From contig NZ_CP024923.1 of NCBI RefSeq assembly GCF_002796605.1, forward strand, positions 3,293,501 through 3,357,500: a stretch of DNA of 64,000 bases. The letters are read 5' to 3'. This stretch comes from Sphingomonas psychrotolerans (GTDB taxonomy: Bacteria > Pseudomonadota > Alphaproteobacteria > Sphingomonadales > Sphingomonadaceae). Of this stretch, positions 28,450-39,286 are shown in pieces. Each line of letters begins with the position of its first letter. Position 1 is the stretch's first letter. Made by a program: the position numbers and the translations under genes. The notes beneath the pieces were generated by a model that was not told where the DNA came from, did no database searches, and saw only the letters and a list, made by a program, of their open reading frames with translations.

Positions 28450-29042
28450 GACGTCAAAACTCCCCGCACGCGCAGATAATCGAGCAACGGCAGCATCGGC
28501 ATGCCGAGGATGGTGAAATGGCTTCCCTCGGTGCGGCTGAACAGCTGCACGCCCGGCCCTTCCATCCGATAGCAGCCGACACAGCCACCGATCGCCGGCC
28601 ATTCGCGATCCAGATAGTCGGCGATGAAATCCTCCGACAACCGCCGCACATGCATCCGGGCGCGATCGACATGCCGCCAGACTGCATGCCCGCCCTCGGC
28701 AATCACCGCGGCGCTGTAGAGATCGTGGTGCCGTCCCGACATCATCCGGAGATGCCCGGCGGCATCCTCGCGGCTCACCGGCTTGTCGAGCAAGGTGCCA
28801 TCATCAAGCGCCACCACCGAATCGCAGCCGAGCACCAGCGCCCCTGGCGCCAGCCGGGAGACCTTGAGCGCCTTCAATTCGGCGAGTGCGTCGGATAGAT
28901 CGCGTGCGGAAATGCCGCCCGCGACCAGCGATTCCTTCGCGGTCGCTTCGTCGACCTGTGCGGCCACAGCCTCATGAGCCACGCCTGCGGCATCGAGCAT
29001 TGCCCGCCGCGAGGCGCTTTGCGAAGCGAGAACCAGATTCAT
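28446..29042 (-). CDS. maf: Maf-like nucleoside triphosphate pyrophosphatase
   Basis: A 198-residue Maf/YceF protein: LVLASQSASRRAMLDAAGV at the N-terminus, then VLGCDSVVALDDGTLLDKPV and IGGCVGCYRMEGPGVQLFSR. It hydrolyses non-canonical or modified nucleotides (m7GTP for YceF-type members; which type this is cannot be told). It overlaps both ppsR and aroE by four bases. Confidence 0.93.
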   Translation of the reverse strand: MNLVLASQSASRRAMLDAAGVAHEAVAAQVDEATAKESLVAGGISARDLSDALAELKALKVSRLAPGALVLGCDSVVALDDGTLLDKPVSREDAAGHLRMMSGRHHDLYSAAVIAEGGHAVWRHVDRARMHVRRLSEDFIADYLDREWPAIGGCVGCYRMEGPGVQLFSRTEGSHFTILGMPMLPLLDYLRVRGVLTS

Positions 29043-29860
29043 GCGTCGCGCGCCTGCAGATTGCGCTCATTGCAGAGCTGGATGATCGCCGCGGCGGTCT
29101 CCTCGATCGATCGCCGCGTCACGTCGATCACCGGCCAGCCATTATCGGCGAACATACGGCGCGCAAAAGCGATCTCGCGCTGCACTGACTCCTGGTCGAC
29201 ATAGCTCGTTTCGGGGCTCTGATTGAGCGACAACAGCCGGTTTCGGCGGATCTGGACCAGCCGATCGGCGCTGGTGGTCAGTCCGACGACCAGCGGATGC
29301 TTGAGCTTGTAGAGTTCGGGCGGAGGTGGAGACTCGACCACGATCGGGATATTGGCGGTCTTGTAGCCGCGATTGGCCAGATAGATCGACGTCGGCGTCT
29401 TCGACGAACGCGACACGCCCGCAAGAACGATATCGCATTCCTCCCAATCGTCGGCGCCGATGCCGTCATCATGCGCGATCGTGAACTGGATCGCTTCGAC
29501 ACGCGCGAAATAGGCGGCATCGAGGGTGTGTTGCCGACCCGGGCGCGCCTTGGCTTCCTGACCGAGCAGGCCCGACAAGGCATGGCTGACCGGATCGAGC
29601 GGCGCGATCGCCGGCAACCCCATCGCCCGGCAGCGGCTCTCCAGGGTGCGACGGACATCGGCGTTGACCAGAGTGAAGATCACCAGTCCGGGATTCTGTG
29701 CGATCTCCTGCAGGATCCGCTCGAGATGCGCCTCGCTGCGCACCATCGGCCAGAAATGCCGCAGCGTCTCGACATCGTCGAACTGGGCGAGCGCCGCCTT
29801 GGCGATATTTTCCAGCGTCTCGCCGGTGGAATCGGAAAGGAGGTGGAGATGGAGGCGCAT
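29039..29860 (-). CDS. ppsR: Pyruvate, phosphate dikinase regulatory protein
   Basis: A 273-residue DUF299 kinase/pyrophosphorylase. It starts MRLHLHLLSDSTGETLENIA and has the P-loop-like DIVLAGVSRSSKTPTSIYLA, both family signatures. It phosphorylates and dephosphorylates PpdK or PEP synthase. This is the RP001-type gene that borders the origin in Caulobacter and Rickettsia. The ATG at 29860 is preferred because the longer upstream frame runs through the origin region and is not conserved-looking. Confidence 0.94.
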   Translation of the reverse strand: MRLHLHLLSDSTGETLENIAKAALAQFDDVETLRHFWPMVRSEAHLERILQEIAQNPGLVIFTLVNADVRRTLESRCRAMGLPAIAPLDPVSHALSGLLGQEAKARPGRQHTLDAAYFARVEAIQFTIAHDDGIGADDWEECDIVLAGVSRSSKTPTSIYLANRGYKTANIPIVVESPPPPELYKLKHPLVVGLTTSADRLVQIRRNRLLSLNQSPETSYVDQESVQREIAFARRMFADNGWPVIDVTRRSIEETAAAIIQLCNERNLQARDA

Positions 29861-30163
29861 CAGCCCGTGCGTGAATCTGTGGAGAACATGCCGGACAGCC
29901 GCTAGCGCAACCACGCGCGGCGGCCAAGCGCGGCGAAACCGGGGAATCGCCGCAGCTTCATCCACAACCCCGTCCCCAGGCTCCCTGGCCGGCCCACAGG
30001 CTGTGGAAAGCGGGGAGTGCGAGTCCGAATCCGGGGCGCGCCGCGGGGCGGACAGAGTCAATCTGTTGGCAATTTCCGGGCAAGTGCCTAAGCCCCGGCT
30101 TCCACGCCCCTACTATCTCCAACAACCCTTAGATTCTTATCTTATAGTATTAGGATAGAGGCC
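29861..30163. other. Predicted chromosomal origin of replication (oriC)
   Basis: The region lies between ppsR and hemE, the position of Cori in Caulobacter. DnaA-box-like 9-mers are TTCTCCACA (29886-29878, minus), TCATCCACA (29958-29966, plus; one mismatch each to TTATCCACA) and the weaker CTTTCCACA (30010-30002, minus). A near-match IHF site AGTCAATCTGTTG is at 30056-30068. An AT-rich stretch (30131-30157) next to hemE is a candidate unwinding element. Six GANTC sites lie within 264 bases. No TTAA-N7-TTAA CtrA site is seen. Genes on both sides point away from the region. Confidence 0.8.
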
Positions 30164-31201
30164 CTGAACTCCCCGTCCCCCAAGCCTCTGCTCGCGACTC
30201 TGAAGGGCGAGAAGCAGCCAATCCCACCGATCTGGCTGATGCGTCAGGCCGGACGGTATCTCCCCGAATATCGGGCGCTTCGTGAAGAGAAAGGCGGCTT
30301 TCTCGCGCTGGCGATGGACAGCGATGCCGCGGCCGAGATCACACTTCAGCCGATCCATCGCTTCGGCATGGACGGCGCGATCCTGTTCTCCGACATTCTG
30401 GTGGTGCCGATGGCGCTGGGGCAGGATCTGTGGTTCGAAACCGGCGAAGGTCCGCGGCTGGCGCCTACCGTCCAGGCACGCGACGTGCTGGAGGGCCTTC
30501 AGGCGACGCCTGAGGTGCTCGAGCCGGTCTTTGGCACCATCCGCAGGGTCGCGGCGCAATTGCCCCCCCAGACCAGCTTCCTCGGCTTTGCCGGCAGTCC
30601 GTGGACCGTTGCGACCTATATGATCGCCGGACAGGGCAGTCGCGAGCAAGCCGAAGCGCGCCGCCTCGCTTATCGCGATCCCGCACTGATGCAGACGCTG
30701 GTCGATCGCATCGCCGATTGCACGATCGATTATCTGCTCGGTCAGATTGCGGCCGGGGTTGAGGCGGTGCAGTTGTTCGACAGCTGGTCGGGGAGCCTTT
30801 CCCCTGCGCAGTTCGAGCAATGGGTAATCGCGCCCACCGCGCGGATCGTGGCGGCGCTCCACCAGCGGGCGCCCCATGTCCCGGTGATCGGATTCCCCAA
30901 GGGCGCCGGCGGAAAGCTCCCCGCTTATGCCCGTGAGACGGGAGTCGATGCGATCGGGGTCGACGAGACGGTCGACCCGGACTGGGCCCATGCCTCCTTG
31001 CCCGGGGACCTGCCGGTGCAAGGCAATCTCGACCCGCTCGCGTTGATCGCGGGAGGCACGACGCTCGATACGGCTATCGACCGTATTCTCGCCGCTTTTG
31101 CCGAGCGCCCCCATGTGTTCAATCTCGGCCACGGGATTTTGCCCGACACACCGATCGCGCATGTCGAGCAATTGCTGACGCGGGTACGGAGGGGACGATG
31201 A
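30164..31201 (+). CDS. hemE: Uroporphyrinogen decarboxylase (probable CTG start)
   Basis: HemE removes four carboxyl groups from uroporphyrinogen III in heme synthesis. The active-site segment is PIWLMRQAGRYLPEYRALRE, with later SDILVVPMALGQ and FNLGHGILPDTPIAHV. The first ATG (30239) would cut the protein inside this conserved segment. In frame upstream lie 25 more codons reading NSPSPKPLLATLKGEKQP, as in other HemE proteins, with no ATG, GTG or TTG. A CTG at 30164, eight bases after AGGA, is the likely start and gives 345 residues, the normal size. The stop overlaps hemJ (ATGA). Confidence 0.93.
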   Translation: MNSPSPKPLLATLKGEKQPIPPIWLMRQAGRYLPEYRALREEKGGFLALAMDSDAAAEITLQPIHRFGMDGAILFSDILVVPMALGQDLWFETGEGPRLAPTVQARDVLEGLQATPEVLEPVFGTIRRVAAQLPPQTSFLGFAGSPWTVATYMIAGQGSREQAEARRLAYRDPALMQTLVDRIADCTIDYLLGQIAAGVEAVQLFDSWSGSLSPAQFEQWVIAPTARIVAALHQRAPHVPVIGFPKGAGGKLPAYARETGVDAIGVDETVDPDWAHASLPGDLPVQGNLDPLALIAGGTTLDTAIDRILAAFAERPHVFNLGHGILPDTPIAHVEQLLTRVRRGR

Positions 31202-36776: not shown

Positions 36777-36792
36777 TGTTCCACGTGGAACG
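36777..36792. other. parS-like site 1
   Basis: TGTTCCACGTGGAACG is an almost perfect palindrome around CCACGTGG and matches the ParB-binding parS consensus TGTTTCACGTGAAACA in its core. It lies between mnmE and mnmG, 38 bases before the mnmG ATG. Confidence 0.8.
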
Positions 36793-38663: not shown

Positions 38664-39286
38664 CGGAAGATGACGCGCGCACTTGGATCGACGATAGCTT
38701 CGGTGTTTCACGTGGAACGCTTCTGGCCCGCTACGCCGAACTGCTGATCGCCGAAGCGCCCCGTCAAAACCTGGTTGCCGCCTCTACGCTCGACGCCCTC
38801 TGGTCTCGGCATTTCGTCGATTCGGCCCAACTCATTCCGCTCGCAGCCGACGCCCCACGTGGAACGTGGCTTGATGTCGGCAGCGGTGCCGGGCTTCCCG
38901 GGATCGTCGTCGGGATCTTGCTCGACGACCGTCCGATAGTGCTGTGCGAACCGCGATCCCGGCGTGTCGCATTCCTCGAGCAGGTCATAGCGGCGCTGGA
39001 CCTCAAGTCGCGCATCACTGTGCAGCGATCGATGATCGAGAGCTACCATCCCCCCGAACCGGTTGCGGTGGTTTCGGCGCGTGCGGTAGCGGCCCTGCCG
39101 GCGTTGCTGCAATCCACAGCACATTGCACCGGTTTGTCCACAATCTGGGTGCTTCCAAAGGGGCAGAAGGCGCACTCGGAGGTAGTAGCCGCGCGCCGGA
39201 AATGGCAAGGTGTGTTCCACGTGGAACCAAGCATCACCCAGCCGGAATCCGGCATCGTGGTAGCCCGAGGGGTGCGACCCAAATGA
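38660..39286 (+). CDS. rsmG: 16S rRNA (guanine527-N7)-methyltransferase RsmG
   Basis: A 208-residue SAM-dependent methyltransferase (GidB) with [20 protein letters not shown] as motif I and [18 protein letters not shown] further on. It methylates G527 of 16S rRNA. Three parS-like palindromes lie inside its coding sequence (38704-38719, 38851-38866, 39213-39228); they encode the repeated peptides VSRGT, PRGT and FHVEP. The stop overlaps parA (ATGA). Confidence 0.96.
38704..38719. other. parS-like site 2 (inside rsmG)
   Basis: TGTTTCACGTGGAACG matches the parS consensus with the left arm perfect. It lies within the N-terminal codons of rsmG. Confidence 0.8.
38851..38866. other. parS-like site 3, degenerate (inside rsmG)
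   Basis: CGCCCCACGTGGAACG has the right arm and the CCACGTGG core, but a degenerate left arm, so binding may be weaker. Confidence 0.55.
39213..39228. other. parS-like site 4 (inside rsmG)
   Basis: TGTTCCACGTGGAACC keeps the TGTTCCACGTGGAAC core of site 1. It lies near the end of rsmG, 55 bases before the parA start. Confidence 0.8.

Follow-up and report, generated by a model that had tools for sequence, protein, structure and literature searches.

Where does replication of the Sphingomonas psychrotolerans chromosome begin? A reading of the sequence alone had placed the origin between ppsR and hemE. We examined this prediction within a window of 64,000 nucleotides (the whole stretch of DNA analysed, bases 3,293,501-3,357,500 of a 4,882,990-base contig that opens with dnaA); positions below are window coordinates unless given in Mb. 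With high confidence we predict that the gap at 29861-30163 is the chromosomal oriC. The prediction is supported because strand polarity changes near the gap, a profile of the gap matches the genome in one place, DnaA-box slots are shared with 78 relatives, an unstable element lies beside hemE and parS-type sites cluster nearby. The available part of a published description of origins in this family (PMC4741004) points the same way. Coordinates are collected in Table 1.

Table 1. Features of the ppsR-hemE gap and its surroundings, in window coordinates.
Feature	Position	Strand	Basis
oriC candidate (whole ppsR-hemE gap)	29861..30163		profile R1 E 2.7e-53 (by construction); polarity fits
ppsR-type gene (PRK05339 type), left boundary	29039..29860	-	NCBIfam NF003742 E 1e-98, over cut-off
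hemE, right boundary, probable CTG start	30164..31201	+	TIGR01464 E 4.4e-117, match from residue 9
Putative DnaA box, slot 1, TTCTCCACA	29878..29886	-	one mismatch; slot filled (at most one mismatch) in 75/78 relatives
Conserved block CGCTAGCGCAACC	29900..29912		GCTAGCG in 59/78 relatives' gaps; alignment conservation
Putative DnaA box, slot 3, TCATCCACA	29958..29966	+	one mismatch; slot filled in 37/78 relatives
Putative DnaA box, slot 5, CTTTCCACA, weaker here	30002..30010	-	two mismatches; slot filled in 48/78 relatives
Six GANTC sites	29873..30136		starts 29873, 29944, 30021, 30027, 30055, 30132
GANTC (GAATC), conserved slot	30027..30031		GANTC in 49/51 representatives
Conserved block GTCAATCTGTTGGCA	30057..30071	+	IHF-like core TCAA-N4-TTG; TTGGCA read as -35-like; GTCAANCTGTKGG in 67/78 relatives
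Conserved block TAAGCCCC	30089..30096	+	17 nt after TTGGCA, read as -10-like region
AT-rich duplex-unwinding element (putative)	30129..30158		least stable 30-mer in the 64-kb window
parS-type palindrome GTTCCACGTGGAAC	36778..36791		pattern match
parS-type site GTTTCACGTGGAAC	38705..38718		pattern match
parS-type palindrome GTTCCACGTGGAAC	39214..39227		pattern match

The gap is flanked by hemE and a ppsR-type gene, identified with profiles TIGR01464 and NF003742; the latter we take to correspond to COG1806. The two genes diverge, as the sequence-only reading had described them, with ppsR on the minus and hemE on the plus strand. To the right of the gap lie, among others, mnmE, mnmG and rsmG (named by profile match) and a rho-like gene, parA and parB (named by eye from the open reading frames). 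In-frame ATG, GTG and TTG codons are all absent from hemE before its conserved start (30164-30239). Translation from the first ATG, at 30239, would remove residues that match the hemE family, and the gene therefore likely starts at the CTG at 30164.

Chromosome polarity was assessed in 59 stretches which, together with the window, cover 23% of the contig (1.13 Mb). An apparently low G+C content in one sampled stretch (L015) proved to be an artefact of missing bases. In a two-arm GC-skew fit the origin came out at 3.35 Mb, near the gap at 3.323 Mb, and the terminus at 1.06 Mb; the bootstrap median for the origin was 3.32 Mb, with a wide 95% range of 2.7-4.3 Mb. The local flip is blunt, with a mean skew of -0.0003 to the left (3.15-3.32 Mb) and +0.013 to the right, and the cumulative minimum falls inside the window at 33-35 kb, approximately 4 kb right of the gap. 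In many bacteria the word GGGNAGGG is oriented towards the terminus. With the origin set at the gap, 156 of 192 sites of this word had the expected orientation; the best fit (159/192) put the origin at 3.27-3.28 Mb, 44-54 kb to the left. The 73 sites of GGGCAGGGT in the whole genome were consistent with this on the large scale, being mostly forward at 0-1.06 Mb (21/24), reverse at 1.2-3.15 Mb (21/28) and forward to the right of the gap (10/15); between 3.23 Mb and the gap (3.23-3.32 Mb) five of six were forward, which counts against the exact place of the gap. Of the 437 places of GGGCAGGG, the first 100 listed were all on one strand, and this listing was not used to judge purity. GC skew had been proposed as a check on the original prediction, and in this sample the polarity does flip near the gap, within a wide error. 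Just three places in the genome match the parS pattern GTTYCACGTGRAAC, and all are 6.6-9.1 kb from the gap, at 36778, 38705 and 39214.

Two DnaA-box-like 9-mers with one mismatch each and one weaker site had been reported in the gap, and we recovered all three, at 29878, 29958 and 30002; none is perfect, and the gap 29861-30163 holds no perfect box. Boxes with at most one mismatch numbered 36 in 748,790 sampled chromosome bases (0.014 per 300 nt). Pairs within 300 nt of each other occurred just twice, once in the gap. For comparison, relatives were picked by ppsR similarity as the best 80 of at least 558. Of these, 72 are titled Sphingomonas and the nearest shares 97% protein identity; two loci (L068 and L112) gave no hemE and were dropped, leaving 78 gaps. 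One record (L100) is titled Arthrobacter sp. TPD3018 and carries a Sphingomonas-type ppsR-hemE gap; it is probably mislabelled or mixed. Across 79 gaps (the 78 and the present one), each containing one to six boxes with at most one mismatch, we counted 221 such boxes in 25,479 b; the flanks of the relatives had 29 in 294,593 b, a density about 90 times lower. On the alignment there are five main slots, at 29878 (minus strand, filled in 75 of 78 relatives), 29940-29941 (minus, 21), 29958 (plus, 37), 29989 (plus, 22) and 30002 (minus, 48), and the last is a perfect TTATCCACA in 20 of the 78. Judged by this alignment, the three putative boxes belong to an array that the relatives have in common, and many of those relatives have stronger sites than this strain.

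The AT-rich stretch next to hemE was also borne out. The nearest-neighbour energy of 30129-30158 was -29.6, compared with -33.2 for the next 30-mer of the 64-kb window, and we consider this segment a putative unwinding element. Among the relatives AT-rich letters tend to persist at this place, and column conservation is low. The block CGCTAGCGCAACC is among the best-conserved parts of the gap in relatives; GCTAGCG is not rare in the genome, with six occurrences in the window and 36 in 700 kb sampled.

A sequence profile (R1) was built from 45 gaps, the present one included. Within its own genome it matched the gap only, and the next best place had an E-value of 0.7. When 60 genomes of the order were searched, some of which may belong to the profile's own building set, it was found in 7/7 of the same genus (own included), in 8/9 of other genera of the family and in 1/44 outside the family. 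One same-genus genome (G033) has a second, weaker match (L140, C6:305536-305660, E 1.4e-5) approximately 93 kb from its main one.

Could the gap instead be a conserved divergent promoter region, with the true origin elsewhere within some 100 kb? Skew and polarity resolve no finer than that distance, and the flanking genes do diverge. The published origin regions of the family (PMC4741004) and of Caulobacter (PMC1914354), in the parts available, argue against this alternative. With the DnaA slots shared by 78 relatives, the unstable element, the parS cluster and the single profile match also against it, we consider it very improbable. An origin beside dnaA, where many bacteria have their oriC and where contig 1 of this assembly opens, is barely credible: GC skew is positive to the left as well as to the right of dnaA (stretches L041 and L042), dnaA sits at no flip, agreement of GGGNAGGG drops to only 124/192, and no box pair within 300 nt occurs in the 40 kb covering both contig ends. 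In the Sphingomonadales, dnaA is moreover not conserved close to ori, according to the accessible portion of PMC8116508.

If the gap is the oriC, initiation would run as follows. DnaA would bind up to five box slots in the left and middle gap, three of them recognisable here, and open the AT-rich element beside hemE. Two forks would then leave the gap for a terminus near 1.06-1.1 Mb, and ParB, bound at the three parS sites, would draw the new origins apart. The sequence-only reading had invoked Caulobacter. In the available text of PMC1914354, Cori lies between hemE and a COG1806 gene, and it resembles the present gap in these flanks, in its DnaA boxes and in its AT-rich region. Closer to home, a hemE-side oriC of the Sphingomonadaceae with conserved putative DnaA boxes and unwinding element is already in print (PMC4741004, available part). 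The predicted oriC of Sphingopyxis granuli TFA described there is like ours in its place beside hemE, its conserved putative DnaA boxes, its duplex-unwinding element and its conserved gene order. The predicted origin, itself very likely, is thus ordinary in kind and place for a Sphingomonas-type genome.

One departure from Caulobacter concerns CtrA. Cori carries five TTAA-N7-TTAA CtrA sites (PMC1914354, available part), whereas the present gap and its 78 relatives have none. Neither the perfect form nor its single-mismatch and TTWW-N7-TTWW forms occur on either strand of the gap; in the 78 relatives, perfect or single-mismatch sites were found in none, the loose TTWW-N7-TTWW in six and TTAACCAT in none. 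The absence of TTAA-N7-TTAA had been noted before, and this part stood. The accompanying claim, that cell-cycle control would differ, is not shown by absence alone, because perfect sites are rare across the class: they occurred in 2 of 27 gaps from other families (loci of 28 other genomes were sampled and L170, without an adjoining hemE, was excluded). In Sphingomonas melonis ctrA is dispensable for growth, and CtrA is mentioned as influencing replication in that species, in the part of PMC8116508 that could be consulted.

The other departure is the density of GANTC. The gap contains six sites in 303 nt vs. an expected 0.65 (sampled chromosome) or 0.93 (window), and the other 1.07 Mb of sampled chromosome contained only one stretch with as many. 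That stretch (L008, 3180-3340) consists of short GAGTCAA-type repeats. The 78 relatives had 4.8 sites per 303 nt in the gap and 0.80 in the flank. In 50 representatives we counted 240 GANTC vs. 69 after dinucleotide shuffling (z = 22.6); the runner-up among 16 palindromes reached 7.5. AGNCT was the motif also raised at z = 7.5, which probably results from facing DnaA boxes. Other families of the class showed a mild rise of GANTC (27 gaps, 80 vs. 59, z = 2.9). Among the representatives, sites are clustered next to DnaA slots 1 and 3, across the IHF-like block and within the unwinding element. The site at 30027 is conserved in place: it lay 35-37 nt before CTGTTGG in 48/48 anchored representatives (three of 51 rows had no anchor and were dropped), and its N was A or C in all 48 (48/49 by a looser count). 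Many of the other GANTC positions shift between lineages.

The genome encodes both a candidate methylase for these sites and GcrA, a transcription regulator. The CcrM-type protein has 375 aa and a RAMA domain over cut-off, and its best NCBIfam match was NF050803 with 615 bits, under the model cut-off of 830. Methylation of GANTC is documented for Sphingomonas sp. AAP5 (PMC8067484, in the text available), and an extended GcrA motif of the form YGAKTCK has been given (PMC7987155, likewise in part). YGAKTCK occurred in 31/51 gaps and YGAKTCG in 23/51, and both are absent from the present gap; GAKTCG, in 45/51 gaps and also here, is suggestive only. GANTC motifs are already known at the Caulobacter origin (PMC3973325, accessible part). 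The Sphingopyxis granuli TFA description, unlike ours, has no mention of GANTC or promoter-like blocks in its available part (PMC4741004), and among the papers listed from the open literature no title or abstract opening gave an earlier report of GANTC enrichment in Sphingomonas origins. What these sequences add to the known picture is a dense, conserved GANTC cluster in a predicted origin free of CtrA sites.

A further conserved element bears on how this cluster is to be read. The sequence-only reading had named an IHF site, and a near-match, AGTCAATCTGTTG, does exist at 30056-30068; the 64 kb contain seven IHF matches with at most one mismatch, two of them inside the gap. The perfect consensus WATCAANNNNTTR was found in 0/78 relatives and WATCAN5WTR in 1/78; the IHF-like core TCAA-N4-TTR was present in 67/78, and the IHF site of the present gap is a near-match only. 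IHF at the gap is therefore not firmly supported by the sequences, and the block may rather be part of a hemE promoter. The 79 rows were divided by extra DNA before hemE, defined as a distance of more than 430 nt between ppsR and the WLMRQ motif of hemE. All six rows with extra DNA lacked at least one of the two blocks (four lacked both, two the second only), and both were complete in 70 of the other 73. TGTTGG was absent in 6/79 rows, all six also without TAAnnCC; L043, L117 and L069 keep TGTTGG without TAAnnCC, so joint loss is not clean, and in L069, L100 and L121 a block is missing without extra DNA. Fisher's test of extra DNA vs. block loss gave p = 3e-7 (79 rows) and p = 5e-6 (51 rows), values that are overstated since some rows are close kin, for a link that was post hoc, i.e. 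seen first and tested after. Within the extra DNA, two of the six rows contain an inverted repeat of 22-28 nt; these are the near relatives L043 (2571-2677, 28 nt) and L044 (2552-2677, 22 nt), and the repeats lie between the unwinding element and hemE. Because the blocks are incomplete in all six extra-DNA rows, a promoter fits at least as well as an IHF site. The two blocks may constitute a hemE promoter that degenerates after separation from its gene.

We weighed the hypothesis that in Sphingomonas CcrM methylation, in place of CtrA, gates the origin. After firing, the GANTC cluster would leave the origin hemimethylated; hemimethylated GANTC next to the DnaA boxes and within the unwinding element, together with a fixed GANTC read by GcrA at a promoter in the origin, would delay re-firing until CcrM remethylates. 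The arrangement of six GANTC sites, enriched across representatives in a genome with a CcrM-type gene, is like that of E. coli oriC with its Dam/SeqA sequestration, where many adenine-methylation sites lie among the DnaA sites, and unlike it in using GANTC and CcrM rather than GATC and Dam (PMC10073500, available part). We nevertheless consider such gating unlikely.

An equal or better rival is that the GANTC cluster and the TTGGCA/TAAGCCCC blocks act in transcription alone, as a CcrM/GcrA-type promoter of hemE (and ppsR) inside the origin, with no role for methylation in initiation. To this we assign an even chance. It would account for the fixed spacing of one GANTC before CTGTTGG and for the preference for A or C at its N, a strand preference beyond what CcrM alone would give, and it is consistent with the incomplete block pair in every row with extra DNA. 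In Caulobacter, moreover, the DNA content profile of a delta-ccrM mutant is wild-type-like and CcrM was concluded to be dispensable for initiation control, and intergenic DNA generally over-represents GANTC (PMC3973325, in the part available). The same text recalls, on the other side, that over-expression of CcrM gives extra chromosomes. Promoter function alone also leaves aside the many GANTC at varying places, by the DnaA slots and in the AT-rich element, beyond the promoter-like block; a strict sigma-70 scan of the gap returned no promoter, and YGAKTCK, present in most of the representatives' gaps, is missing from this one.

If the contig is circular, the predicted origin locates the start of replication 1.56 Mb from dnaA, the gene at which this assembly begins. 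It also provides a clean case for comparison, since this alphaproteobacterial origin lacks CtrA sites and has dense, conserved CcrM sites. The old question of whether CcrM acts on initiation can here be asked without masking by CtrA at the origin.
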